IMG/VR virus record: IMGVR_UViG_3300020147_000019
Span: 1-40,209 of that record
Strand: one strand, 5' to 3'
DNA from: a virus
DNA: 40,209 nt
Positions within the stretch are counted from its first letter, which is position 1. Every line of letters starts with the position of its first letter. Below the pieces are notes generated by a model, which worked only from the letters and a program-made list of their open reading frames with translations, was not told where the DNA came from and made no database searches. Of the stretch, positions 10,297-27,726 are shown one piece after another. The position numbers were made by a program, and so were the translations under genes.

Positions 10297-12394
10297 GGAA
10301 TCTCTTAAAATAAAGTTCATAGCTGACGATGGCAACCTGGTAAAATCAATCAACCAGATTGAATCGGAACTTGCAGGACTTCAAAAGAAGCTCAAAGAGA
10401 CCACCAATATTCAGGTATTTAAGCAGACGCAAATCCAAATCAACGAATATCAAAAAGGACTTGCTAAACTCGGAGGACAGGCAGGGAAAACAGGCAAGGA
10501 CTTTACCAATTTTGGCCGTGTTATTCAGGATCTTCCTTATGGATTTCAGGGCATTCAAAATAACCTTACTCAACTCATTCCCTCGGTTGGTGCGCTTGGA
10601 CTTGCATTTACAGGGGTGGTGGCGGCGCTGACATTCGCACAGGTAGGATTTGGTGCATGGACACGGGGCATGGGTGGGGCAAGTGCTGCAGCGAATGAGA
10701 ACACCAAACGGCTGAAAGAAGCAAAGGCAGCGTTACAGGATTACATTGATTCACTTGATGACATCAGCAAAGCAAGGGTTGAAGGGGCGCAGAATGCGCA
10801 GGAAGAACTTGTTGCCTTAAAAACACTATACACCGCTACCCAAAACGCAAACATTCCTCTTGCCAAAAGAAAAGAGTTAGTTGACGAACTGCAAGAACAA
10901 TACCCTAAATATTTCGGCAATATCCGCGACGAAATCATACTTGTTGGAGGCGCTAAGAACGCATATGATAGTCTTACTAAGGCCATCCTTCAGAAAGCCA
11001 GAGCCCAAGCAGCCGAAAAAGCAATAGCAGATATACAGGGGCAAATTCTTGGTTTGGAGGAACAGCAGAACAGCAATCTTAAAGAACAGACCAAGCAACT
11101 TAGGTTAGTGCAAAAAGCCCGGGAGAATCTGTCGAACCAGCCAGATTTTGACCCAAAAGGCATGGCAGCAGTTGACAGCAGGAGCTTGCAAATTCAAAAC
11201 GATTTCAATAAGCAGCAGGGCATATTAAATTCTTTGTCCAAGGAAGGTGTAAATATCCAAAAGCAGCGAAACGATCTTTTGGAACGGGCCCGCCGTCTGA
11301 CAACCGAACTAACCAGCATTACGGAGGCCACACCGGACGTATTACTTGATCCCGGTGCTGCGCTTCCAAAGCCAAAGAATATAAAAACAGAGGTAAACTT
11401 CTTTGATAAATTCCTCTCATTCGATCCCTCAAAAGTAAAAGCCAAATCAAAGGAATTTGTGCAGGCGCTGGATATCGCCAAAGAATTTGCCCTGCAGAAC
11501 CAAGATATTTTCCAGGGGCTTGATGCGATACTTAAAGAAGGAAACACCCAAGGGGCGATTGATGTTGCCCGCGAGTGGTGGGAGAACTTTCAAAAAGGTA
11601 TTTACCGGCTCAAAACTGAGCCCATTGACCTTTCAGGGACCAGGCCAAACTTTGGTACAGGCATATCGGATTTAAAGGAAATCAGCTCGAAAATAAAGAT
11701 CAAGCCTGTTTTACTCACCAACACTGCCAATCAGGAGCTGATTTCACAATATGAATCATTTAAGAAGATTGGTTCTGAAATTGGTAAGAGGCTCGGGTCT
11801 GGCTTTGATGAAGAATTTAAAAAAATATTTGATAATGCCTTTTTAAAAGCTGCTAAAAATGGTATTGGCGGACAGCAAATGGAAGAATTTATGTCATCTT
11901 TTGCAGCAGCTTCAGAAGTGGCCGCAAAAGGCATCCAAGGGGTGAGTAATGCGTTTGGAAGTTTCGTTGATGCGATTATGCGCGGTGAGAATGGAATGGA
12001 GGCGTTTGGCGAAACTCTTAAAAACACTTTCCGTCAAATCGCAGTTGAGATCACTAAAGCCATTGTTTTGGCGGCAATCTTATCTGCCCTGTCGGGTGGG
12101 AAAACCAGTTTTTTGCAAGCATTTGGAAATGTATTGAAAATGTCTAAGGGTGGTTTTGTGCCTGGTACTGGCAACAGCGATTCCGTGCCGGCCATGCTTA
12201 CACCCGGCGAGTATGTCATTCCCAAGAACATGGCCCAACGGCTGAAGAATAGCTCAATATTCAATCCGTTCAACGCTCAGTCCATCGGCCCACAGGTACA
12301 GGTATTGGTGCCAGCAGTCACATTAAGAGGACGTGATCAGGTACTGCAATTTGCAAGAACATCAAGACACCAGAGGGGGCTGGTTGGCAGATGA
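10289..12394 (+). CDS. tail tape measure protein
   Basis: A 701-residue protein, helical and Gln/Lys/Glu-rich over most of its length, with a hydrophobic stretch at about 98-121 (PSVGALGLAFTGVVAALTFA). The C-terminal MSKGGFVPGTGNSDSVPAML followed by TPGEYVIPKNMAQRL is a hallmark of tape measure proteins. It sits directly after the chaperones. At roughly 1.5 angstroms per residue the tail would be about 105 nm, an estimate from general siphovirus behaviour. Confidence 0.92.
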   Translation: MAEESLKIKFIADDGNLVKSINQIESELAGLQKKLKETTNIQVFKQTQIQINEYQKGLAKLGGQAGKTGKDFTNFGRVIQDLPYGFQGIQNNLTQLIPSVGALGLAFTGVVAALTFAQVGFGAWTRGMGGASAAANENTKRLKEAKAALQDYIDSLDDISKARVEGAQNAQEELVALKTLYTATQNANIPLAKRKELVDELQEQYPKYFGNIRDEIILVGGAKNAYDSLTKAILQKARAQAAEKAIADIQGQILGLEEQQNSNLKEQTKQLRLVQKARENLSNQPDFDPKGMAAVDSRSLQIQNDFNKQQGILNSLSKEGVNIQKQRNDLLERARRLTTELTSITEATPDVLLDPGAALPKPKNIKTEVNFFDKFLSFDPSKVKAKSKEFVQALDIAKEFALQNQDIFQGLDAILKEGNTQGAIDVAREWWENFQKGIYRLKTEPIDLSGTRPNFGTGISDLKEISSKIKIKPVLLTNTANQELISQYESFKKIGSEIGKRLGSGFDEEFKKIFDNAFLKAAKNGIGGQQMEEFMSSFAAASEVAAKGIQGVSNAFGSFVDAIMRGENGMEAFGETLKNTFRQIAVEITKAIVLAAILSALSGGKTSFLQAFGNVLKMSKGGFVPGTGNSDSVPAMLTPGEYVIPKNMAQRLKNSSIFNPFNAQSIGPQVQVLVPAVTLRGRDQVLQFARTSRHQRGLVGR

Positions 12395-14598
12395 AACCAG
12401 GTGTAATATACCGGGGATATTTTGAGAATGCACAGCTGCTGTCCATGAACAACGGCAACGGCGAGGATGGTCAGCAAGTGATCATCTCCATTGAGGATAT
12501 GGAGACCCTTATAGATGATGCGGCCACCGAGACTATTTATGACCTCTCAGTAAACAACCAACTAACAGATAAACCTTTGGCTGCCTCGGTAATTGACAAC
12601 TCAGAGGATAAACACACGGTAGTAAGAAGCAAGCAAGTTGAAATAAATATTTTCTCAGGCAATGGCATTGACCTGTCCACTTTCTCAACGGGTGGTGATC
12701 TCAGGTGGCGGGTGAAAATCGCGGTGAATGACTTGAACAACATTCATTTTATTGGCTATCTGTCAACAGCTGACATATCAATGGACTTTGTGCCCGATCC
12801 TGCGTTGATCACACTTATTGCAACGGACAATTTGGGCCTTTTGGGTGAGGTTCCCTTAACAGGATTCTCAGGAGAAAGAGTGACAGGTGAGCAGAAGCTG
12901 TCCACCCTTATAGCCATGGCGCTGCACAAAACAGGTCTTGATCTTGAAATAATCGCGATCCATAATGTAAGAGAGGAAAACCACCCGGATGACCACCTTT
13001 TTGACAGCATTTACCAGGATGTAAAAACCTACGAAAGGACAACCACAGAAAAAGAGGATTGTTATACAGTCCTTGAAAAGATACTCGGTGAATATTGTTT
13101 TATTACCCAATGGAAGGGGCGGTGGTACATTATGTCTGAAGATGAAATTTCAGACCCTACCGTTTACCCGGCCCGTTTTGATTCGGAAGGAAACTTTATC
13201 GAGTTTTTGAGCGGTGACACATTCCAGAAAGGGATTTTGGAGAATGAGGATTTGCAGTGGCAGGGGCTTCCTGATCCTCCACCTCTGGTTACTTTGACAA
13301 GGCCGCTGGCAGCCCTCATGCACAATTTCCGGTATGAGTTCCCTCTTGAAATTATTGACAACATTGATTTTTCCCGTGGAACAGATGATATCATTCCGAT
13401 TGTGGTTGATATGGGATGGCATATACATAGGTATGCGAATCTCGGCGCGTTCCCTTCCACCGGGGATAAGGACATTGTTTACTATGCTATTGACACCGGT
13501 AATTATTACAAATTCATTGGGCTTTCGTACGAACAGGTTTCGGGTACTGAAATTCCATCCGGCATTGCTTATGTGTGGGAAGATTGGACCCTGGAAAGGG
13601 TAGGCGGCGGGGTAGTGAACAGTACATCCTATATCGCTAAAATATTTCAGTCAGGCACTGAGATTGACAGGTATGGGGTAATCGGAGCCTCTGCAAATGC
13701 ACACCGGGTTATTTCCAATCCCGTAAAAGTTGGCAAATACGACAAATTCACCGTTTCGGTCGACAGAAGGTTGAGCGATAACCTAACCGGACCGGGACAG
13801 CAAACGGATTTTGTTTTTCAACTCATTCTTGAAGGCAATGACGGCAGCACATGGAACGTAGATGATACTGGTGCTTGGTCCTTGATTGACAAGTTTATTG
13901 AGATCCAATACAACCGCGATGATACCGATGAAGAAGAATGGGCAAATGTATCGGTAGAAACCCGGCCTATTCCGGTCAGCGGGAAATTAAGAATCGCGCT
14001 TTATCAGTCTCAGTTTACATCAGCCGTGCAGACACAGTTTGCAAATCTGAGGTTTGAATATATCGCCTTTATCAATGGCTCCTATCAGCGTTATCCCGGT
14101 CACCAGCATAAAATCTCACAGGCATTAAATACCAAAGTAGTACGGGAAAAGGATGTGTTTATTGACAATGCACCGCGCCCTTCAATGAAAGGGGCCATGC
14201 TGGTAGCGGATGGAGTTGATTTTGTTCCTGCAGGCCGCTTCTTTAATTGGGCGCACGTACCAACGCCAACGGAGGATCATTATCATCCTTACGGTTACAC
14301 GCGGGCGCAAGCTGCCTGGAACCAATACAACAGGCAGATGGTAATGTTTGACGGAACGGTGATCGGCCTGCAATCGGGCGAAACGGACGGTGAAGGACTA
14401 CCCAACAGCCCGGACCTTTTACACCGGTATGTTTTCGGTGACGTGGACAATACCACCATCAACAGGTTTTTTCAACTGCTTCATTACGAAATGGACTATA
14501 ACCTATGCACGTGGCGGGGCTTCTTTTATGAGGTCTACAATACAGCCATAGGTAAGAAATACGATGATACTTATGAATACAAATATTTAAGCGAATGA
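12391..14598 (+). CDS. tail tip / baseplate hub protein
   Basis: A 735-residue protein directly after the tape measure, where siphoviruses encode the distal tail/hub proteins. Residues about 200-265 (REENHPDDHLFDSIYQDVKT, then TEKEDCYTVLEKILGEYCFI and QWKGRWYIMSEDE) resemble the hub fold segment common in Bacteroidota siphoviruses. The middle has a beta-sandwich-like insertion (about 430-560). The C terminus is His/Tyr/Trp-rich (HVPTPTEDHYHPYGYTRAQA). The exact subfunction (Dit versus Tal) cannot be told by eye. Confidence 0.65.
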   Translation: MKPGVIYRGYFENAQLLSMNNGNGEDGQQVIISIEDMETLIDDAATETIYDLSVNNQLTDKPLAASVIDNSEDKHTVVRSKQVEINIFSGNGIDLSTFSTGGDLRWRVKIAVNDLNNIHFIGYLSTADISMDFVPDPALITLIATDNLGLLGEVPLTGFSGERVTGEQKLSTLIAMALHKTGLDLEIIAIHNVREENHPDDHLFDSIYQDVKTYERTTTEKEDCYTVLEKILGEYCFITQWKGRWYIMSEDEISDPTVYPARFDSEGNFIEFLSGDTFQKGILENEDLQWQGLPDPPPLVTLTRPLAALMHNFRYEFPLEIIDNIDFSRGTDDIIPIVVDMGWHIHRYANLGAFPSTGDKDIVYYAIDTGNYYKFIGLSYEQVSGTEIPSGIAYVWEDWTLERVGGGVVNSTSYIAKIFQSGTEIDRYGVIGASANAHRVISNPVKVGKYDKFTVSVDRRLSDNLTGPGQQTDFVFQLILEGNDGSTWNVDDTGAWSLIDKFIEIQYNRDDTDEEEWANVSVETRPIPVSGKLRIALYQSQFTSAVQTQFANLRFEYIAFINGSYQRYPGHQHKISQALNTKVVREKDVFIDNAPRPSMKGAMLVADGVDFVPAGRFFNWAHVPTPTEDHYHPYGYTRAQAAWNQYNRQMVMFDGTVIGLQSGETDGEGLPNSPDLLHRYVFGDVDNTTINRFFQLLHYEMDYNLCTWRGFFYEVYNTAIGKKYDDTYEYKYLSE

Positions 14599-15302: not shown

Positions 15303-15556
15303 TGACGTATAAAAAGATTTTGCTGACACTAAACGAAGGGGCGACAAAAGTTAGCCATCCTGAACTGATCGGCTCATACCCTGTAAAGGTGAGACGTGAG
15401 GGATCAGCGTATTCGATAGTGAGGTTCAATGCTGTTGTGGGAGCATCAAGCGATGATCTGACAGCAACATTCAGCAGGCCAATAGGGAGGCTTGCATTTA
15501 AAAACGCAGGCAGCCCAGGCGGCGAAAAAATATTGGTTTCGTATAAAAAGAATTGA
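15299..15556 (+). CDS. hypothetical tail-region protein, 85 aa
   Basis: An 85-residue protein overlapping the previous gene by 4 bases and ending just before the fibre gene. The pattern TYKKILLTLNEGATKVSHPE, YPVKVRREGSAYSIVRF, then GEKILVSYKKN suggests a small beta-sandwich. No family is recognised. Its position suggests a fibre-attachment or tail-tip accessory protein. Confidence 0.55.
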   Translation: MMTYKKILLTLNEGATKVSHPELIGSYPVKVRREGSAYSIVRFNAVVGASSDDLTATFSRPIGRLAFKNAGSPGGEKILVSYKKN

Positions 15557-15558
15557 CT

Positions 15559-18500
15559 ATGAAAAGAATCTTAATAATGTTAATGGTCCTGGCAAGCATC
15601 AAGTCATTTGCTCAGCCAGTACCGAGGCATACAAGAATAAACCAATCCTACCAATGGCCGAGCGGTGTGTTTGATTCAACCCTTGCCAACCCTGTACGCG
15701 ATACCACCGTGAATGCCGTGCGTATCGGTGAACAGCGTTTCAGGGTGCAGGACAGTTCGATCTATGTTGCGGTTTGTACTTCTGCCTGTGGTGGTCCAAA
15801 ATGGAAAAAGGTGGGAACCGGTACCGGTGGCTCAGATGGTAATAACTATGTGGCAGATGCCGATTTTGTTGATTCAATACTTACAATAGAGCGTAATGGT
15901 CTGCCTGATGTAACCGTCAAGATAAAACCGAGGGTTGATACCTCAGATGTGGTGAATATCCTAAAGGCGGGGGTAGTGGCTAACATGGATTCACTAAAAG
16001 CAACCCGGCTATTTGAAAATGGCATCCGAAGGGTATGGACACAAGGCTACTATTCACCCGGTGACGGTGGTGATGCCCGATACATTTACGTTGACACATC
16101 CACCAAAACACCGGATGACAAGTTTATCATTCTGCCTGCAGGAAAAACTACAGCAACCGCCGGGCGGTGGGAACTGATGATAGAGAACCAATCGCTCAAC
16201 CTTTTACAAATCGGGGCAAGGATTACACCCAATATCATTTTCGCGGGAACATCAGGCGCATTCGACAACTACGATGTTATCATGTCCGCGCTGAGGTTTT
16301 GGGATAACTACAAATGGTTTTCGGAGATCATCATTCCGGGCCTTGGTTCTACCCTCGATGGCCTTTTTGTAGGTCGCAAACTTCAAATTCACCAACAGAT
16401 CAGGATAAAGGGACAGATACCAGGGGTGGTAAGCGACCGCAAGGCGAAACTGATCTTTACCAATACGGCGGGACTTGAATTTTTATATCCCAATCCCGGT
16501 GATGTGGTTTCTTATTCAGGAAGGTATTATCAGGCACTTCAAAAACACTCTTTAGGCAACGCCCCAACAGGTACGGCCTCGGATAATGACTATTGGGAAG
16601 ATTTGGGAACGTCTTATGCTAACCTGTCAAGTGTTTATTCCGATACTGTTACCTATTATGGCAATAGCTACGGCGCTGAAGAAGCATGGGTTGAGGATCT
16701 TGTGATACGAAACATACCCTTTCCTTTTTCCAACTACCTGAGCGATTCGACACTAACGGGGGTATTTTCAAACAACAGGCTTCACATGAGGCGGTGTTAT
16801 GTCATCGGCTTCCAGGGTGACGGTATATGGAGGCATGGCAATGTAGCGGATGTTCCGTATGCCACCAATGCAAGCGGCTGGACCTCTCAGGACAACTTTG
16901 TGCAGTTCAATGCGGGTTACGGTATGAAAATAACGGGCGGCGACATTAACACTTTCGTTTCGATCAATGACAAATTCACTTCCAATAAATACGCGGGCAT
17001 TTTGGATTCATCCCTTTTGGGTGGCGTGATCATCAAACCAGATTGTCACAATAACGGTATTTACGGCGCTGGTGGTGCCACCAATTCATCAGGTTATGTT
17101 TCATACAACGGCCTGTATTATGCAGCCCGTAAAAACTCAGTGAACCAGGCACCAACGGGGCTCCCAACCGATAACGAGTATTGGACCTATTACAGTGCAT
17201 CGGATTTGTGGGGAACGTCCGTACCCTGGACAAGCTCAACGCATCATCGGGCTATCGGTGGTGTGATGGTGCTGCGCGGATTTACAAAAGTGTCTGCTCC
17301 ATATTTGGAGGATGGCGGTTTTCACACAATAGTGGGCGGTACAGGATCAATGATGGATGGCGGTTACTCCATCGGCACACCCGTACTTGGTGCATGGCTG
17401 CAGGGGTCATGGAACCTCTCCACGCATCCTTACGGGACATTCGCATCAGGCTTTGAGGGCAAAGGCGCTTTCAGGGCAAGGCGGTTTGAGTGGCAGGGGG
17501 GAAGTTTTGAAGATGACAACCAGGGCGGCGTGATGCTGAAGTCTACAAACCTCCCTTATGTGCATTCCACCAATGGGCTGTCATACTACCTTGGGCCAAC
17601 CAATCCTTACGCCTTTGCAATGAACTCGGATGGGAATTTTGCTTTTGGCGATCACGGAGGCATCAACAACGCATGGAAAGTCAGCATCATTGGAAATTTA
17701 AGGGTCACCGGCTCTGATGTAAGATTCTCAGGTCTCAACAGGGCGCTTTTGGATTCGGCTGGTTACAAACTCACAGCGGTTGACGCAGATGGCGACATGG
17801 TGAAAATAGACTGGCCGACATTCGGCTCTGATGAGGATTTCGGAAACTATTACTATGAAAACTGGGTAGATCCCGATTCCGCTTTTTTTGCTCCGAGTGA
17901 TTCAGTGTTGAAAAGCAGGATGTATAAAGTTGCTGCTGCAAATAGCAAACTTACCGTAACGCCAACAAGAACGGACAGCACAACGCTGTGGACCGTGGGC
18001 GTCAATGAGGCGAATTTCACCGGCATCCCACAGTCAGCAGTAACGGGAATGAGTGATTCCCTTGCTGCACACCGGGCAAGGCTGGTGGATCTTGAAGCCA
18101 GCAGCGGTGGCAGCACACCGGGGATAGATGATGTGCTTGCGCAGGGTCAAACGCTCACAGCCACCCGCAGCCTGTCGGGTGGTACCTACTCCTTAAACCT
18201 TGGAACGGGGGGAAGCAAACTGTCGAATTTAACCGTCAACGCATCGGGGTATTTTCAGTTATACGGAGGATTCCAGCTTGATAGAGGCGTAGCAACGGAT
18301 GCCAACTACACGGCGAATGCTTACAGCCCGATGATTGTACTACCAACGATCACCGCAAACCGGACGCTTACCTTACCATCAGCGGGGGCAGGAAAGAAAA
18401 TAGAAATTCAAAACAACAACGCTACGTCTTTTCAATGGCAAGTGTCAGGCGTGAAAGATATAACCGGGGCCACAATTTTTGCTATCCCAAATCAATTTAT

Positions 18501-18903
18501 CGGATATCTGATAAACGATGGTACGGACTGGATCATTAATAACAGCGGGAAAACCGTTGAACATATGGTCATCGCGGTATCGGATGAGACTACAGCCATC
18601 ACCACAGGAACCGCGAAAGTTACTTTCCGCATGCCTTATTCCGCGACGATCACAGGGGTAAGGGCATCAGTAAATACGGTTTCATCATCTGGCACTCCAA
18701 CCATTGACATCAACGAAAGCGGCACAACCATTCTATCTACAAAGCTCACCATTGACGCAAACGAAAAGACAAGTACCACGGCTGCGAGTGCAGCGGTGAT
18801 CTCGGACAGTTCCATTGCTGATGATGCGGAGATCACCATTGATATCGATGTGGCAGGAACCGGCGCAAAGGGCCTTAAGATCATAATCTATTACACACGA
18901 TGA
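15559..18903 (+). CDS. large tail fibre/tailspike with beta-helix and N-terminal signal-like peptide
   Basis: A 1114-residue protein from ATG 15559 (a TTG at 15553 is less likely). The N terminus MKRILIMLMVLASIKSFAQ is a textbook signal peptide. Residues about 150-260 (YYSPGDGGDARYIYVD, IIIPGLGSTLDGL) resemble the start of Pectate_lyase_3-like tailspike beta-helices, and the beta-helix probably continues to about 720. Two related insertions at about 314-349 and 511-545 share Y-G-x-Y-Y...PTG...YW and look like small carbohydrate-binding modules. The C-terminal 110 residues (AVSDETTAITTGTAKVTFRM...) match a tip domain common in phage tail fibres. Likely role: receptor or glycan binding. Confidence 0.82.
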   Translation: MKRILIMLMVLASIKSFAQPVPRHTRINQSYQWPSGVFDSTLANPVRDTTVNAVRIGEQRFRVQDSSIYVAVCTSACGGPKWKKVGTGTGGSDGNNYVADADFVDSILTIERNGLPDVTVKIKPRVDTSDVVNILKAGVVANMDSLKATRLFENGIRRVWTQGYYSPGDGGDARYIYVDTSTKTPDDKFIILPAGKTTATAGRWELMIENQSLNLLQIGARITPNIIFAGTSGAFDNYDVIMSALRFWDNYKWFSEIIIPGLGSTLDGLFVGRKLQIHQQIRIKGQIPGVVSDRKAKLIFTNTAGLEFLYPNPGDVVSYSGRYYQALQKHSLGNAPTGTASDNDYWEDLGTSYANLSSVYSDTVTYYGNSYGAEEAWVEDLVIRNIPFPFSNYLSDSTLTGVFSNNRLHMRRCYVIGFQGDGIWRHGNVADVPYATNASGWTSQDNFVQFNAGYGMKITGGDINTFVSINDKFTSNKYAGILDSSLLGGVIIKPDCHNNGIYGAGGATNSSGYVSYNGLYYAARKNSVNQAPTGLPTDNEYWTYYSASDLWGTSVPWTSSTHHRAIGGVMVLRGFTKVSAPYLEDGGFHTIVGGTGSMMDGGYSIGTPVLGAWLQGSWNLSTHPYGTFASGFEGKGAFRARRFEWQGGSFEDDNQGGVMLKSTNLPYVHSTNGLSYYLGPTNPYAFAMNSDGNFAFGDHGGINNAWKVSIIGNLRVTGSDVRFSGLNRALLDSAGYKLTAVDADGDMVKIDWPTFGSDEDFGNYYYENWVDPDSAFFAPSDSVLKSRMYKVAAANSKLTVTPTRTDSTTLWTVGVNEANFTGIPQSAVTGMSDSLAAHRARLVDLEASSGGSTPGIDDVLAQGQTLTATRSLSGGTYSLNLGTGGSKLSNLTVNASGYFQLYGGFQLDRGVATDANYTANAYSPMIVLPTITANRTLTLPSAGAGKKIEIQNNNATSFQWQVSGVKDITGATIFAIPNQFIGYLINDGTDWIINNSGKTVEHMVIAVSDETTAITTGTAKVTFRMPYSATITGVRASVNTVSSSGTPTIDINESGTTILSTKLTIDANEKTSTTAASAAVISDSSIADDAEITIDIDVAGTGAKGLKIIIYYTR

Positions 18904-19526
18904 AAAGGATTTTAGTCATAGTGCTGATTTTGTTTTCAGTGACTTCAGAGGCGCAAATGCTTTTGAATCCTTATCGTCATACATCATCGGTTCCTTTTGT
19001 TGCTGATTCTATTAAGATTCATTTTTATTCTGGATCGAATGCTGTTGGCGGCAACTGGAACTCAGTAAACGGTACTACAGCCCTCACAAATCTTAAATGG
19101 TTCTCTGACGGCTCAAACTCAGGGGCAACAGGGACGCTATCCGCACAAAGCAGCGTAGCGGATCACGCCGTAGGTTACTGTCCGTCGCCCGTGTTCAACT
19201 GGCCGCAAGGTGTGCTCAGGTACACCTCGTCGCATTCAGCAACACGGACATTCACCATTAGTTCACTTCCTGCCGGTACTTACCAAGTAAGATTAGTGGC
19301 AACAAGAAGCACACAGGCGGTTACTCAAACCTATTCCATTGCAGGCAGCACAAGCTCAAATAATACGATTGCAGTAGGATCGAACTGCGGCGCTGATGAT
19401 GCGTTGTTTACTGACATAAGTGTGAGCGACGGAGGTTCTATTGTGATCACCGCAACCAATACCAGCAACGGCAATAATTATTTCACGGCTATGGTTGTGA
19501 CAAGGGTTTCAAATACGCTTCCATGA
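18900..19526 (+). CDS. putative exported beta-sandwich protein of tail operon
   Basis: A 208-residue protein overlapping the fibre gene by 4 bases. The N terminus MKRILVIVLILFSVTSEAQ is a signal-peptide-like sequence similar to that of the fibre gene. The mature part is Ser/Thr/Asn-rich and beta-like, with LRYTSSHSATRTFTISSLPA and a GTYQVRLVATRS strand typical of carbohydrate-binding or Fn3-like sandwiches. The function is unknown; a glycan-binding accessory to the neighbouring spike is plausible. Confidence 0.65.
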   Translation: MKRILVIVLILFSVTSEAQMLLNPYRHTSSVPFVADSIKIHFYSGSNAVGGNWNSVNGTTALTNLKWFSDGSNSGATGTLSAQSSVADHAVGYCPSPVFNWPQGVLRYTSSHSATRTFTISSLPAGTYQVRLVATRSTQAVTQTYSIAGSTSSNNTIAVGSNCGADDALFTDISVSDGGSIVITATNTSNGNNYFTAMVVTRVSNTLP

Positions 19527-22396
19527 TGAGATTTATAACCATATCGATCATTTTAATGGCAGGCATGATGGTTCTGAGCAGGGATTCAGCCGGCCCCGTT
19601 CCCTATGTGCCTACAATGGTCACTTATGATTCCACCTTCATGGGGCAACCTGTAAGAATCACCAGAAGGACAGATTTATTTTCCGGCAATTTCCAGTCGG
19701 TTGGGGCAGTGTATCATCCCGGCCTTGGCGAAGTTCCAAGCAGTAGTGTTTCAACCACCGTCAGAAATGGCCCACATGATTGGATGGACGACCCAGGGGC
19801 TACGTTTACAGGTGTGATTCAACTTGGCAATGGACCGTTTTATAATTTGGTTTTAATATCGATCAACCGCAATTGGGATTATCCAACTGGAACGACCCAG
19901 ATGGCAACCATGGATGAACTAATGAGTGGGCTTGTGTCTCATTTCAATATGGTTGATCTGAACTTAACTGGCATTTCTGCTGGGGGGTGGTTCGCACATA
20001 AATACGCGGCTGCTTACCCTCACAAGGTTAATTCCATTGTATCAGTGATGGGCGTCAATGCCAATGCCTCAATTACACAGCTGGCAACATGGGCAAGCGA
20101 TTACGGAGGCAAGGAACTGAACTTTGAAAACCTTAACGATACTCGCGGCGGTGATCAAATTGTCAACGCAATGAATGCGGCAGTCCCTGGGTCAGCGATT
20201 TACTTCAAAACAAAACTTGGTGAACCTGCACCTTATGGGCATGACAGCTATAAACTTGTTTACAACCCAACAAGGGCAACATGGGCCCACAATGCAACGG
20301 ACGTAAACAATACGATACCCGCCAGCCAGATCGTTTATTCTGATGTGCTAACCTGGATGGTTCGCCAAAGCGATACAACCATTGGCAGCGCAGGCAGCAG
20401 TAATATCCCGCCTACTGTGGATGTGGGTAGTGATCAAACTCTCACCTTCCCGGATAATGATGTAAGTGTAACCGCAACCGCTGCTGATGCAGACGGCACG
20501 ATTGCCTCTTACTACTGGGAAAAAATCTCAGGTCCGTTCTCATATGCAATAACAGACAACGACGGAGCTTCCACGGACATCACTGGAATGGAAACTGGCG
20601 TTTATGTTTTTCGATGCACAGTGACGGATGATGATGGCGCAACGTCCTATGATGAAATCACCATCACCATTAACGATCCTGAAGATGAGCCGCTTGTTGT
20701 GACAGCGTTTAAGGATACAACTTTAGCATGGGTTCAGACCAACAGCTGGGGGCTTACAACGCTACTTCCACTGTATGCCACGGCATCAGAAGCAGTAGAT
20801 GAATGGCATTGGGAAGTAATTGAAGGAACGGCGTCAGATATTACCTTCTCTACACCGGATAATGATTCTACAAACGCAGAAGGATTCCAACCAGGTATTT
20901 ACCGTTTCAGAGTAAATGCACTGACAGCAACAAAATCAGGTTCTGATACGATCACTATAAGAGTTGTGAATTATAATGAGAAAGGCCAATGCCCATGCAG
21001 GGAAGGACCGCCTGAGGTTCACGTAATAGGCGCTACAAATCAAATCTTCATTCCTTATATGCGAAGGAGCGGATATGACATTCAGGGCGGCGATACAATT
21101 AAGATCAATCCGGCTTCAAATGAATATGGAATTTATAACGGCATTAACATTGGAGACTTTGGAGGGAAGCCTGAATGTCCCGTTATCATAGTTCCCAACG
21201 GGGCGCCGGTTTACATTGGTGCGCTGCCGTCTGCTCCAACATTTACCAGCTTTTTCAGACTTGGCAATGGTACAGGCGATACGTGTTTTGTTTCTGACAT
21301 AGTGGTAGATGGAACATATTTGAGATGGAAAGGCTACCCGTATGGATTCTTACACATTGACCCAACGCCCTCAGACGGAGCAATTGGTATCACCGGTAAT
21401 CTGCTGAGGAATTTTGAATTTAAAGGGATATACCTGCAGGGCGTGGGCTCTGGCTTTGAAGTGAAACTAAATTCCGATTCTACAAGGCCATGGAGACTTG
21501 CATATCGGTTTGATCACGGGACCGGTATAATCCATGACAATTTCATCAGTAACAACCGCAATGAAACTACCTATATCGGTAACTCATATCCGGATAGCGG
21601 CGAAGAACACGACAACGACGGTGCCAGTGTCCGGGGTCTGGCTGTTTACATCTATAACAACATTGTGGATTCATCCGGGTGGGATGGACTGCAAGTATCT
21701 AACTGGCAATATGCGGAAATCCACAATAACGTACTGCTGACAACAGGAACAAAAAACAACGCAGTGCAGAGATCCGCAGCCGGTATCGGTGGGAACACAA
21801 CCGGTTACTTTAAAAACAATATTGTTTACAACGGCCATGATGGGTTTACATCAACTGGTTTTGGCCGCATCATTTTTGAAAGAAATTATTTCCAATTGGT
21901 AGACAACCGCGGCAACGGTGCCAGTGCAAACCACATTCTATTTGCGCCGCGACCAACAGGTCCGGGGACAGATGTTTTAGAAACCCGGGATTCGGGCCAC
22001 GCATATGTATTCAACAACATCTTCAACAAGCCGCAGGGGTATGCTTTCTGGGGCAAGAACACGGTAGGCGCAGCATCGAAAGGCATGGTAACTGGTAATT
22101 ACGTTATAGAATCCGGCAGTAGGGATTTAGACGATGTCCTTGTGACAGCCGCAGATGACACCATTGAAAACAACATTCTTTATACAGAACCTTTTGACCC
22201 TGTAATTGAGCGGATCGGTAATGCTACTGATGGCGTATTCATACGGGTAACGGTCGGCATCTACACTGCAGACTTTTACCCATCAGACACTATCGGTTCC
22301 GAAATATTTGATTGGATAAAACTTAGAATGCTCGGAGTGCGGCCGGCTGTATTGTCGGTACCACAGGGAACAAGGTTAAGAAGAAAGCCTGGATAA
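19523..22396 (+). CDS. exported alpha/beta-hydrolase + PKD + beta-helix protein (putative tailspike esterase)
   Basis: A 957-residue multidomain protein. Residues 1-22 are hydrophobic and signal-like. Residues about 30-285 form an alpha/beta-hydrolase domain: nucleophile elbow GISAGGW with Ser152, a candidate acid at Asp206, and His240 in PYGHDSYK. Residues about 295-385 are a PKD/REJ-type Ig domain (PPTVDVGSDQTL, TVTDDDGATSYDEITI), with a second Ig-like domain at about 388-475. From about 500 to 900, repeated short strands with Asn ladders (IHDNFISNN, YIYNNIVDSS, EIHNNVLLTT, YFKNNIVYNG) form a right-handed beta-helix. The whole suggests a polysaccharide esterase/depolymerase. Substrate and virion association are not shown. 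Confidence 0.8.
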   Translation: MMRFITISIILMAGMMVLSRDSAGPVPYVPTMVTYDSTFMGQPVRITRRTDLFSGNFQSVGAVYHPGLGEVPSSSVSTTVRNGPHDWMDDPGATFTGVIQLGNGPFYNLVLISINRNWDYPTGTTQMATMDELMSGLVSHFNMVDLNLTGISAGGWFAHKYAAAYPHKVNSIVSVMGVNANASITQLATWASDYGGKELNFENLNDTRGGDQIVNAMNAAVPGSAIYFKTKLGEPAPYGHDSYKLVYNPTRATWAHNATDVNNTIPASQIVYSDVLTWMVRQSDTTIGSAGSSNIPPTVDVGSDQTLTFPDNDVSVTATAADADGTIASYYWEKISGPFSYAITDNDGASTDITGMETGVYVFRCTVTDDDGATSYDEITITINDPEDEPLVVTAFKDTTLAWVQTNSWGLTTLLPLYATASEAVDEWHWEVIEGTASDITFSTPDNDSTNAEGFQPGIYRFRVNALTATKSGSDTITIRVVNYNEKGQCPCREGPPEVHVIGATNQIFIPYMRRSGYDIQGGDTIKINPASNEYGIYNGINIGDFGGKPECPVIIVPNGAPVYIGALPSAPTFTSFFRLGNGTGDTCFVSDIVVDGTYLRWKGYPYGFLHIDPTPSDGAIGITGNLLRNFEFKGIYLQGVGSGFEVKLNSDSTRPWRLAYRFDHGTGIIHDNFISNNRNETTYIGNSYPDSGEEHDNDGASVRGLAVYIYNNIVDSSGWDGLQVSNWQYAEIHNNVLLTTGTKNNAVQRSAAGIGGNTTGYFKNNIVYNGHDGFTSTGFGRIIFERNYFQLVDNRGNGASANHILFAPRPTGPGTDVLETRDSGHAYVFNNIFNKPQGYAFWGKNTVGAASKGMVTGNYVIESGSRDLDDVLVTAADDTIENNILYTEPFDPVIERIGNATDGVFIRVTVGIYTADFYPSDTIGSEIFDWIKLRMLGVRPAVLSVPQGTRLRRKPG

Positions 22397-22404
22397 AAGA
22401 ATAG

Positions 22405-22426
22405 CCCCGCAGCTTGCGCTACGGGG
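22405..22426 (+). terminator. hairpin after the spike gene
   Basis: CCCCGCAGC and GCTACGGGG pair as a 9-bp stem with one C/A mismatch around a TTGC loop. No T tract follows, so this is a weak terminator or processing hairpin separating the tail and lysis modules. Confidence 0.45.
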
Positions 22427-22452
22427 AGAATAAAAATAATAGGATTATAAAA

Positions 22453-22788
22453 ATGGAAAACGTTTGGGTAGCAAATATTGTCACAGGGGGCTCTATCCTG
22501 GCCGTCATGATCTGGTTTTTCAACCGCTTTGTGAAGTCATATGATGACCGATTGGAAAGGGCTGAAAAGGAAAGTCAGGAGATTAAGAAAAATTACATCC
22601 GACGGTTTGAGGAAATCCATGAAAAAGTTGACGACACCAAGGACGAACTAAAGGACCATTTCACTCGGGAAATTCAAGGTGTGAAGGATGAAAAGAATAA
22701 CTATCGAATAATTCAATCAAAGGAAATGGGTGTTATTCAGACCAAACTTGATCACCTCACGGACATGGTAAAAAACAGACAACCATAA
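22453..22788 (+). CDS. single-TM coiled-coil protein, lysis region
   Basis: A 111-residue protein from ATG 22453. An upstream TTG at 22414 lies inside a hairpin loop and is rejected. Residues about 5-25 (VANIVTGGSILAVMIWFFNR) are one membrane segment. The remainder is a highly charged coiled coil (YDDRLERAEKESQEIKKNYI onward). Its place before a multi-TM protein, a lipoprotein and an endolysin suggests a holin-associated or antiholin role, which is inferred. Confidence 0.65.
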   Translation: MENVWVANIVTGGSILAVMIWFFNRFVKSYDDRLERAEKESQEIKKNYIRRFEEIHEKVDDTKDELKDHFTREIQGVKDEKNNYRIIQSKEMGVIQTKLDHLTDMVKNRQP

Positions 22789-22798
22789 AAACAAGTAT

Positions 22799-23191
22799 AT
22801 GCAAGACTTCTTTAACAAAAACAAAGTGTTGATCGTGGGCCTGCTCTCAGCAGTGGCCCTGACATTAAATGAGCTTTTCGTCAAAGGTGAGACGTCAACA
22901 AAAGCCCTGGTGTTCGCGGCATTCCTCGCAGCCATTGGCTTTTTGGCAAACAACCTCCGCGGCCAGTGGGCAACCATTGCCGGTATTTTGGGTACCGCCC
23001 TTTCTACCTATGTCACCATGGAGCAACAGGGAAGCATTAGTTGGCCTCAATTGATCCTTCAGGCTGTGCTTGCCGTGCTTGCCATGTTTGCGCCTCCCAC
23101 TAAATCAAGGGGCTATGAACATACAAGTGTGATCGAGCAGGCGAGGTCTCACGGAGAAATGAAAACTCCCACCGCAATCGGGAAGAAATGA
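22799..23191 (+). CDS. putative holin
   Basis: A 130-residue protein with hydrophobic segments at about 9-27 (VLIVGLLSAVALTLNEL), 36-51 (ALVFAAFLAAIGFLAN), 57-74 and 84-100. The C terminus is short and charged (KTPTAIGKK). Size, several TM segments and the neighbouring lysis genes fit a holin that permeabilises the inner membrane. Its stop overlaps the start of the next gene. Confidence 0.7.
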   Translation: MQDFFNKNKVLIVGLLSAVALTLNELFVKGETSTKALVFAAFLAAIGFLANNLRGQWATIAGILGTALSTYVTMEQQGSISWPQLILQAVLAVLAMFAPPTKSRGYEHTSVIEQARSHGEMKTPTAIGKK

Positions 23192-23694
23192 GAACGCTAA
23201 TCCTAATCCTGCTGGTTTTACTGGCAGGATGCTCAGTAGAAAAGCGGGCCCAAAAGAAAGTCGCCTGGCTCCTCGCAAAAGACGTGATGGATGATGCGTG
23301 CGCCAGGCTGTACCCCGTGCGTGATTCCGTTGTTGTGCGAGATTCCCTGCACTTCGATACGCTGTATGTGGAAAATGAAACCTACATCCGGGATACGGTG
23401 GTAAGGGAAGGTCAGACGGTCTACATCGAAAAGAAATGCCCACCGCACCAGGTGATTACAAAGACGGTTACGCGGGACAGTTTTATTTACCGGACCAACA
23501 CGGCTGACGTGGAGCGGCTGAAAGGTGAAGTGCTTGCCGTTCAAAAGCAGCTTGTCGAAAAGGACGGTATCATCATCAACCAGCAAAAGAATTTGGATAA
23601 AGACAACTGGTGGAAGGTGGCTTGTATTGTAACGTGGTGCGGGGTTCTCTTGGGCTTTGTGTTCAGATTCTTTGTGGTTAAGAAGCCCATTTAA
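23188..23694 (+). CDS. putative unimolecular spanin (lipoprotein with C-terminal TM)
   Basis: A 168-residue protein with a lipoprotein signal peptide and lipobox LAGC (Cys15 after LILILLVLLAG). A soluble periplasmic middle with short repeated strands (RDSVVVRDSLHFDTLYVENE) is followed by a coiled coil at about 105-138. A C-terminal membrane helix lies at about 141-164 (WWKVACIVTWCGVLLGFVFR) with a basic end VVKKPI. Outer-membrane lipid anchor plus inner-membrane helix is the u-spanin architecture, which fuses the two membranes in the last lysis step. Its place next to holin and endolysin genes fits. Confidence 0.72.
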   Translation: MRTLILILLVLLAGCSVEKRAQKKVAWLLAKDVMDDACARLYPVRDSVVVRDSLHFDTLYVENETYIRDTVVREGQTVYIEKKCPPHQVITKTVTRDSFIYRTNTADVERLKGEVLAVQKQLVEKDGIIINQQKNLDKDNWWKVACIVTWCGVLLGFVFRFFVVKKPI

Positions 23695-23721
23695 AATGAA
23701 AAAAGCGGGAGCGACCCGCTT
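23695..23721 (-). terminator. intrinsic terminator, minus orientation
   Basis: The perfect stem AAGCGGG/CCCGCTT (23703-23709 with 23715-23721, loop AGCGA) is preceded on the plus strand by an A tract. It therefore reads as a stem plus T run on the minus strand. It could block antisense transcription arriving from the leftward genes, or act as a hairpin between spanin and endolysin. Confidence 0.55.
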
Positions 23722-23772
23722 GAGTATGACTTTCAAAAAACCGTGCTTAATAAAGTTATATAAAAAACCGAT

Positions 23773-24309
23773 ATGAAATTACCCGCAAAATATAAATGGT
23801 TAGAATCAGAAGGTGCCCCAAAGATGCTTGTGGAGGCAATAAAGCACTATGGAACGCTCGAGCATAAAGGCAAGGGGAGTAACCCCAATATCCTCGCATG
23901 GGCAAAAGAAGTGGGTGTCAATGGATGGTACGCTGATGATAATATTCCGTGGTGCGGGCTATTTGTTGGGGTGGTGGTGAAACGTGCCGGCTACCCGATC
24001 AAAAGCGATCTGCTTTCCGCTCTTTCATGGGCAAAGTTTGGGCAGGAAGTTCCAAAGGGGCGTGAAATGCTATGGGATATTTTGGTATTTACCCGGCCCG
24101 GCGGTGGCCACGTTGGCTTTTATGTTGGCGAGAATGACAATGCTTTTTTGGTGTATGGCGGCAACCAGGCTAACGCGGTTGGATTTACCTGGATTGCAAA
24201 GAGCAGATTATTTGCGGCCAGAAGGCCCATTTATAAAGTTGGAGAACCGGATAACGTACGGAAGATCCACCTCAGCGAAAGTGGTGAGCTTTCGACCAAT
24301 GAGGCATAA
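23773..24309 (+). CDS. endolysin, CHAP/NlpC-P60-like (TIGR02594 type)
   Basis: A 178-residue peptidoglycan hydrolase. The catalytic cysteine is Cys61 in NIPWCGLFVG and the histidine is His113 in GGGHVGFYVG, the order expected for CHAP/NlpC-P60 cysteine peptidases. The N-terminal YKWLESEGAPKMLVEAIKHY is typical of the TIGR02594 family of phage and prophage lysins. No signal peptide is present, so export would depend on the holin. Confidence 0.85.
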   Translation: MKLPAKYKWLESEGAPKMLVEAIKHYGTLEHKGKGSNPNILAWAKEVGVNGWYADDNIPWCGLFVGVVVKRAGYPIKSDLLSALSWAKFGQEVPKGREMLWDILVFTRPGGGHVGFYVGENDNAFLVYGGNQANAVGFTWIAKSRLFAARRPIYKVGEPDNVRKIHLSESGELSTNEA

Positions 24310-26207: not shown

Positions 26208-26441
26208 TTATTGATTTGTTTTAAATATCAATCGGCCTTCATCCCCGCGTCTTGGAATCAGGGTTATTCTACATCGGCATCCACCCTTTCGGGTACATCC
26301 GGCGTGGAATGATACTAAGTTTTCATAAGCAGTTTTCATTTCCATTATCACCCCGTTTAATGAACTACAATGCTCACAGGAATTATTTGCGGCACTCCAT
26401 TTAACAAACACCTCAAAGGGTAAAGATTTGGCTTGCTCCAT
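26208..26441 (-). pseudogene. head morphogenesis protein C-terminal fragment (SPP1 gp7-like)
   Basis: A 77-residue minus-strand ORF matching the C-terminal region of the head protein at 3966-4892. Shared blocks in order are LPFEV, KWSAA, CRCRIT, IP(K/R)R and GRLI. The spaced Cys residues NSCEHCSSLNG and HAGCTRKGGCRCR are characteristic of the gp7-like domain. The frame stays open for about 25 more codons upstream of the ATG without a standard start and lacks the ARTE-containing body. It is probably a remnant of another phage, although a small functional domain protein cannot be excluded. Confidence 0.6.
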
Positions 26442-26523: not shown

Positions 26524-27108
26524 TTATTCTTGCAGTTTAGATACTGCCTCTTTCAGTCTTTGCAACATTTCCTCAACGTTCTTTATTTGCAGCCCAACCG
26601 TGGAGTAGGATCGGTATCTATCAACTTTTACTTGGTACGTCCACTGAAGTTCTTTTTTGATTATGGTATTGTAAGCGGCGAATTGAACATCATTGCACGT
26701 ATAAATATATTCGGTTCCTTCATCCTCCACATTTTGTTTATTTGCCACGAGAAAGTCAAGAAATTTAATTAGTCCAGGCAATTCATCTACATCAATGTAA
26801 CCAACGTAAGTATTTCTGGCATCAGTTGAATAAGTTGACAAGTAAAGTCCTTTCGTTATTAGACCACTCGCAACATCTTTTATAGTCAATGTCTTTAACG
26901 CCAGGTTGTTGGTTCCGATATTATACATAGCTAAAATGACCGCCCCCTTCGGGGAGTATTCCCATACGTCTTTGTATTGCTTTTTGATAATAGTACCGAC
27001 TTTGATTGCGTTCGCCTCCAACTTAGTATTTACGCTATTGGAGTCAATGTCTTGGGCGGCAGCCCATATGCCAGAAAAAAGGCAGCTTATAAAAATTATG
27101 TATTTCAT
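26524..27108 (-). CDS. exported hypothetical protein (lysogenic-conversion candidate)
   Basis: A 194-residue minus-strand protein with signal peptide MKYIIFISCLFSGIWAAAQ. The mature part is soluble, with a possible coiled coil at the end (IKNVEEMLQRLKEAVSKLQE). I do not recognise a family. It lies between integrase and repressor in leftward orientation, a typical place for genes expressed from the prophage that alter the host surface. Its start resembles that of the neighbouring barrel gene. Confidence 0.7.
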   Translation of the reverse strand: MKYIIFISCLFSGIWAAAQDIDSNSVNTKLEANAIKVGTIIKKQYKDVWEYSPKGAVILAMYNIGTNNLALKTLTIKDVASGLITKGLYLSTYSTDARNTYVGYIDVDELPGLIKFLDFLVANKQNVEDEGTEYIYTCNDVQFAAYNTIIKKELQWTYQVKVDRYRSYSTVGLQIKNVEEMLQRLKEAVSKLQE

Positions 27109-27219: not shown

Positions 27220-27726
27220 TTATTTGATCACGGCGCCGATCTTTAATGCGACACCATTATACATTACATGGTCGCCACGTCTTGTAAAAGTATGAGATGC
27301 AAAACCAACATTAATAAAGCCGCCTCCTAAAGTTTTGTTCGAAAATTTAATACCTCCGCCTGCAAACAGTGCCAAACCTCCCGAATTTGTTTGTCCGTTT
27401 TCGGTCCTATTGTAAATTCCGATACCCGGCGCAAGTATCAACATTGGAGAAACTTTCCCTGGCTTTTCATTAAATACAAACGATGTCCTTAGCTGCAAGG
27501 GAACAACTACACCTCCGAATGACTGAAAGCGCATGACCCCTATTTCTCCGCCGATAAAAAAATTTTTTCCTGCTTGTGCGTTGGCGCTAAAGTGAGCACC
27601 CACTATTGGATTTTGATTCTGCAAGAACGATCCTGAGGCACTAACTGTAAAGTATCCTTTGCGTTGTGCCATAGAAAGAGTAGGAATTAAGCACAAAGCA
27701 AAAATTATATATTTCATTTCTTTCAT
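27220..27726 (-). CDS. outer-membrane beta-barrel-like protein
   Basis: A 168-residue minus-strand protein. The signal peptide MKYIIFALCLIPTLSMAQ starts at the second Met (27717); ATG 27726 is three codons earlier. The mature chain alternates Gly-rich beta strands (GKNFFIGGEIGVMRF, GGLALFAGGGIKF, GGGFINVGFASHTF) in the style of small OmpA/OMP_b-brl barrels. It is encoded leftward next to the repressor and is probably expressed in the lysogen. Superinfection exclusion by surface change is a plausible but untested role. Confidence 0.72.
   Translation of the reverse strand: MKEMKYIIFALCLIPTLSMAQRKGYFTVSASGSFLQNQNPIVGAHFSANAQAGKNFFIGGEIGVMRFQSFGGVVVPLQLRTSFVFNEKPGKVSPMLILAPGIGIYNRTENGQTNSGGLALFAGGGIKFSNKTLGGGFINVGFASHTFTRRGDHVMYNGVALKIGAVIK

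Follow-up and report, generated by a model that had tools for sequence, protein, structure and literature searches.

The 957-aa protein encoded at 19523..22396 of virus record IMGVR_UViG_3300020147_000019, whose 40,209 bases constitute the window analyzed here, consists of a signal-peptide-like N-terminus, an alpha/beta-hydrolase, a PKD domain, a second PKD-like domain, a beta-helix and a unique C-terminus, in that order. We propose, with an even chance of being right, that it is a Sec-exported polysaccharide esterase/adhesin that came from the secreted proteins of Bacteroidota, was recruited to the tail-fibre slot and probably joins the virion late. The fusion, a phage version of an architecture already known from cells, is modestly new. 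The more interesting part is that signal-bearing proteins in the tail slot are a recurrent pattern. Coordinates in the window are on the plus strand unless marked (-). ORF calling showed that the gene, which starts with ATG, is present and intact with exactly the extent given in an earlier sequence-only reading of this DNA, and the order proposed there (hydrolase, PKD-type domains, right-handed beta-helix) was upheld by Pfam and homology. Exact peptide patterns identified no close relative of the whole protein in viral contigs, no phage relatives of the record were found at the DNA level, and the full esterase, PKD and beta-helix fusion was not found in any other phage searched. The pieces are seen in phages separately or recombined, as stand-alone esterases or as a beta-helix with PKD.

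The record includes terminase, portal, Mu-F-like head protein, protease, capsid, tail and integrase genes; the head, tail and integrase genes together suggest that the virus is a temperate siphophage. Cellulophaga phages and Flavobacterium phage 11b have the nearest relatives of its portal and distal tail genes, so that the host, judged from these genes, is most likely a member of Bacteroidota. A distal tail protein (12391..14598) has relatives among the structural proteins of phi12:1, a Cellulophaga phage, and in Flavobacterium phage 11b. When exact peptide patterns were used, relatives of the portal were found in viral contigs only and no close relative was found for the 735-aa tail gene. 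Three overlapping genes (starting at 15559, 18900 and 19523) separate the tail genes from the lysis region, and the 957-aa gene is the third of them; by gene order it belongs to the tail module, on the distal side of the tail-tip gene, where a tailspike would be expected. The lysis region (22414..24309) encodes small membrane proteins, a lipoprotein with a two-Cys-type signal that is spanin-like, and an endolysin/tail-lysozyme-like protein. Two minus-strand genes adjoining the integrase, 26524-27108 (-) and 27220-27726 (-), also encode signal peptides (MKYIIFISCLFSGIWAAAQ; MKEMKYIIFALCLIPTLSMAQ) and are possibly expressed by the lysogen. A short ORF at 26208-26441 (-), outside the head module, has a CEHC...GCRC pattern that resembles the Mu F-like minor head domain.

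The first of the three overlapping genes (15559..18903, with a possible TTG start at 15553) encodes a 1114-aa protein with the signal peptide MKRILIMLMVLASIKSFAQ. Its C-terminal domain is common to annotated tail-fibre or virion structural proteins of other phages and looks, by homology, like a mobile tail-fibre tip. The C-terminal ~125 amino acids share 62.6% identity with a protein of Sphingomonas phage Carli, and the domain is also related to the tail fibre of Synechococcus phage S-CRM01; the remainder of the protein has no such relatives. The second gene (18900..19526), which overlaps the 957-aa gene by four bases, encodes a 208-aa protein with the signal peptide MKRILVIVLILFSVTSEAQ and is a possible candidate for a carbohydrate-binding module. 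Its correspondence to the malectin-like insert of the cellular protein WPO38840.1, described below, was not established, as Z was 3.4-3.8 and some shuffles matched the score.

The hydrolase, a predicted-peptidase-type esterase identified by profile, pairwise and alignment comparisons, occupies residues ~25-285 (19595..20377) and begins directly after the signal-like segment. A profile that combined nine esterase and hydrolase sequences, all of predicted-peptidase/PHB-depolymerase type, scored 17.4 bits over residues 25-292, compared with a maximum of 7.5 in 2000 shuffles, and in pairwise comparison with the esterase of the cellular Flammeovirgaceae homologue Z against shuffles was 7.4 for local and 5.3 for global scoring. 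When the domain was aligned with five viral esterases, the nucleophile Ser152 in GISAGG (19976..19978), the proposed triad acid Asp206 (20138..20140) and the proposed triad base His240 in GHDSY (20240..20242) were invariant and in the family order. The profile score and the invariance of the triad bear out the suggestion of a GxSxG hydrolase with Ser152 and His240, to which Asp206 can now be added. These results support the assignment of the domain as a predicted-peptidase/PHB-depolymerase-like alpha/beta-hydrolase, with a triad predicted by homology. Membership in the SGNH family was rejected because Pfam gave no such match and the nucleophile motif is of the GxSxG type, followed later in the sequence by Asp and His. 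The domain has diverged: the Pfam Abhydrolase_1 match around GISAGG (E 4.7e-5, 23.6 bits) falls below the cut-off of 25.8, the HPGLGE sequence (19715..19732) that aligns with the family HG(x)GE oxyanion-hole motif has a proline insertion, and there is an extra loop past His240. Such changes would be compatible with a dead hydrolase, retained solely as a carbohydrate-binding module. However, the three triad residues are all retained and are invariant among the viral relatives, and we consider the loss of activity improbable. The enzyme may then strip ester groups (acetyl, feruloyl-like) from a polysaccharide, both activity and substrate being predictions. Exact peptide patterns found no close relatives of the esterase in cellular contigs. 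The same esterase family was observed at the C-terminus of a protein of at least 2237 aa in a 236-kb viral contig (L050, 10-6723); the 5' end of this gene is open in the locus and no signal was seen.

The PKD-type domains claimed from the sequence were found as one strong and one weaker copy. The first, at residues 302-383 (20426..20671), matches the K319L-like PKD family (PF22352) with 97.4 bits against a Pfam gathering cut-off of 27, and the second was recognized by domain search at about residues 419-481 (20777..20965). They are followed by a CxC motif and the right-handed beta-helix region (20990..22198). Homology to cellular beta-helix proteins extends over residues ~491-890: tblastn aligned the Flammeovirgaceae protein WPO38840.1 across residues 282-805 (E 2e-37), and a Salinibacter protein annotated as right-handed parallel beta-helix repeat-containing matched residues 491-796 (E 4e-12). 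The beta-helix is thus upheld by homology, while Pfam Beta_helix has no match in the 957-aa protein and the fold model reached a pLDDT of 32. Fold prediction had been put forward as a check, and models were obtained, but with confidence too low to prove the folds. The pLDDT of 32 is that of the whole mature protein, low because this single-sequence AlphaFold model had no alignment behind it. The esterase domain, modelled with six sequences of which five were the viral relatives, reached a pLDDT of 45 and a pTM of 0.56, with alternating strands and helices; the best Foldseek matches of this low-confidence model were chlorogenic/feruloyl esterases at E ~1e-3 and a TM of only ~0.25. In GenBank the sole phage match was MT836146 (L012), a human faecal phage contig in which the helix part only is found, within a 1052-aa tail-region ORF (11194-14352) that has no signal peptide. 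This gene lies directly upstream of a lysozyme-like gene, and the C-terminus of its product has a short motif in common with the insert of WPO38840.1.

WPO38840.1 is a PKD domain-containing protein of Flammeovirgaceae bacterium SG7u.111, encoded on plasmid CP139022.1. It has a signal peptide, where the phage protein has a signal-like segment, followed as in the phage protein by an esterase, K319L PKDs, a CxC motif and a right-handed beta-helix in the same order; the PKD-to-helix alignment has an E of 5e-47 and the esterase is collinear. Unlike the phage protein, it is 1617 aa long, with more PKDs, an insert, extra C-terminal domains and a type IX secretion system (T9SS) sorting domain, and its gene is a cellular plasmid gene outside any phage tail module. 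The statement that this exact fusion was undescribed therefore holds among the phages searched but not among proteins, since cellular Bacteroidota possess it. Judged from these alignments, the layout of the phage protein is that of the secreted sugar-active proteins of Bacteroidota themselves. A related Flammeovirga esterase gene adjoins a GH88 gene, and the Salinibacter helix gene is located in a glycosyltransferase cluster. Given the common order in WPO38840.1 and these glycan gene contexts, the phage gene looks like one acquired from secreted proteins that act on polysaccharides, minus the T9SS domain. The contexts of the relatives also support the polysaccharide-related role proposed earlier, with a predicted activity.

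The earlier reading overlooked the N-terminus of the 957-aa protein, where the segment MMRFITISIILMAGMMVLSR (19523..19582) was classified as signal-peptide-like by a hydrophobicity rule. All three consecutive genes begin in this way and two of the signals end in AQ, an ending typical of Bacteroidota signals. To our knowledge, ordinary tail spikes have no segment resembling an export signal. The segment MMRFITISIILMAGMMVLSR has hydrophobic n- and h-regions, but its cleavage site is the weakest of the three, with no clear AxA or AQ, and it may instead act as an anchor that stays uncleaved. The protein showed neither a recognizable N-terminal domain for virion attachment nor a PHROG tail family. 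Thus, the description of the protein as a phage spike is plausible by gene position, while the signal-like start and the lack of a recognizable N-terminal virion anchor count against it, and for this reason virion attachment is proposed only from proteomics annotations of other phages. An ordinary spike assembled in the cytoplasm, with a hydrophobic N-terminus that is not used for export and may insert in the tail or the membrane, would agree with the tail-slot position of the gene, with the poor cleavage site and with the tail fibres of related phages, which assemble without any signal. We judge this explanation unlikely: the two upstream neighbours have textbook AQ-ending signals, unrelated tail-slot proteins of other phages have them as well, and the signal of WPO38840.1 serves secretion.

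Viral contigs found via the esterase, PKD and helix contain, between their tail and lysis genes, recurrent runs of genes that encode signals; esterases, beta-helices, PKD, malectin and SPRY domains appear in these runs in changing combinations (L047, 783-6651; L052, 45-9350; L054, 3712-6579; L046, 3922-6816; L053, 2025-7245). The run in L047 comprises four signal-bearing genes, including a beta-helix gene and an esterase gene that overlap by four bases and both encode signals. L052 has five consecutively, one of them with tail-fibre family matches, and L046, L053, L054 and L025 have one or two each. The esterases of L046, L047 and L048 belong to the same family as that of the 957-aa protein, bear signals and occupy the same tail/lysis slot, but they are stand-alone enzymes with no PKD or helix fused to them. 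Among viral ORFs with PKD matches, 8 of 28 were signal-positive by rule; therefore, PKD-bearing phage proteins also occur without signals.

Sec-type signals are found at the start of ten distal proteins encoded in the tail slot of the isolated Cellulophaga phages phi10:1, phi19:1 and phi39:1; the annotation gives all ten, pectate lyases among them, as components of the virion verified by MS/MS (phi10:1, L023, 11848-17392; phi19:1, L028, 5017-11154; phi39:1, L042, 16625-20172). A fixed rule applied to five Cellulophaga phages detected signals in 9 of the 16 distal and none of the 36 proximal verified proteins; phi19:1 gp104 escapes the rule although inspection by eye shows a signal. The Fisher p of this contrast, 3e-6, is overstated because phi10:1 and phi19:1 have genes in common. 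These proteins resemble the 957-aa protein in their tail-slot position and in starting with a signal or signal-like segment, and include polysaccharide-lyase or fibre domains (phi19:1 gp102, a pectate lyase; phi39:1 gp26). They differ from it in having neither the esterase nor the K319L PKD, and in their fibre sequences. The trait is not universal, since tail-protein signals were absent from ten Bacteroidota phages (phi12:1, phi17:1, phi18:1, phi46:1, 11b, P2559S, P2559Y, P12024L, FCL-2 and B124-14). In a survey of flavophages, the core genes of Assiduviridae, to which phi10:1 and phi19:1 belong, include two for pectate lyases; a text search of that article found no occurrence of "signal peptide" (PMC8776804).

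The proposed course of events for the 957-aa protein is as follows. From its gene position, it would be made late, together with the tail and lysis genes. Its N-terminal signal would route it via Sec to the periplasm, where it would fold. Pfam found no T9SS C-terminal sorting domain (Por_Secre_tail) in the protein, a domain present in WPO38840.1, and for lack of it the protein would remain periplasmic until lysis. By comparison with other phages, it would most likely be added to the particle as a spike at a late stage, when the cell lyses or afterwards. The beta-helix and PKD stalk would bind a surface polysaccharide, from which the Ser152-Asp206-His240 hydrolase would remove ester groups. Export, signal cleavage, virion attachment and substrate are all putative steps. 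The absence of a recognized N-terminal attachment domain and of a clear AxA/AQ cleavage site, the many related Bacteroidota phages without tail-protein signals, the lack of signals in most PKD-bearing viral ORFs and the low-confidence AlphaFold models speak against this course. The strongest competing explanation is that the protein is exported but does not become part of the virion. Set free at lysis, or shown on the surface of lysogens, such an enzyme would loosen extracellular polysaccharide, block superinfection or alter the host surface. The signal-like N-terminus without a virion anchor, the adjoining lysis genes, the integrase of a temperate phage and the secreted nature of the homologue WPO38840.1 all fit such an enzyme. 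On the other hand, three isolated phages have comparable tail-slot proteins with signals, which their annotation gives as components of the virion, and a periplasmic protein without a T9SS domain would miss the surface of a living lysogen by the T9SS route. We regard a solely secreted enzyme as a real possibility, although not the expected outcome.

Phage-borne removal of ester groups from polysaccharides, the role proposed for the 957-aa protein, has precedents in the tail fibres of G7C (gp63.1) and Possum (gp66), which strip O-acetyl groups from the polysaccharide without cutting its backbone (PMC9569702). Those fibres are SGNH hydrolases with N-terminal attachment domains and no mention of a signal peptide (PMC9569702), whereas the 957-aa protein is an alpha/beta-hydrolase with a signal-like N-terminus. 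The target proteins of phage diversity-generating retroelements (DGRs) are stated to have no signal peptides (PMC6199706). No description of signal peptides on phage tail fibres was found in the literature searched, of which coverage was partial, and the absence of a description is therefore no proof of novelty.

The usual view is that phage tails are assembled in the cytoplasm. We tentatively suggest that in some Bacteroidota phages the fibres or spikes may be exported by Sec, folded in the oxidising periplasm and joined to the virion no earlier than lysis, a route by which secreted glycan enzymes of the host could be taken over as spikes with their signals intact; the three genes described here would be one example of this recurrent strategy. 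The esterase-PKD-helix protein itself is a candidate enzyme for stripping ester groups from bacterial polysaccharide. The isolated Cellulophaga phages make the idea of export before assembly directly testable. If it is true, annotation and expression practice for such proteins would change. Export signals on virion proteins would, in that case, imply a two-compartment assembly route and explain how Bacteroidota phages come to borrow glycan-degrading proteins from their hosts.
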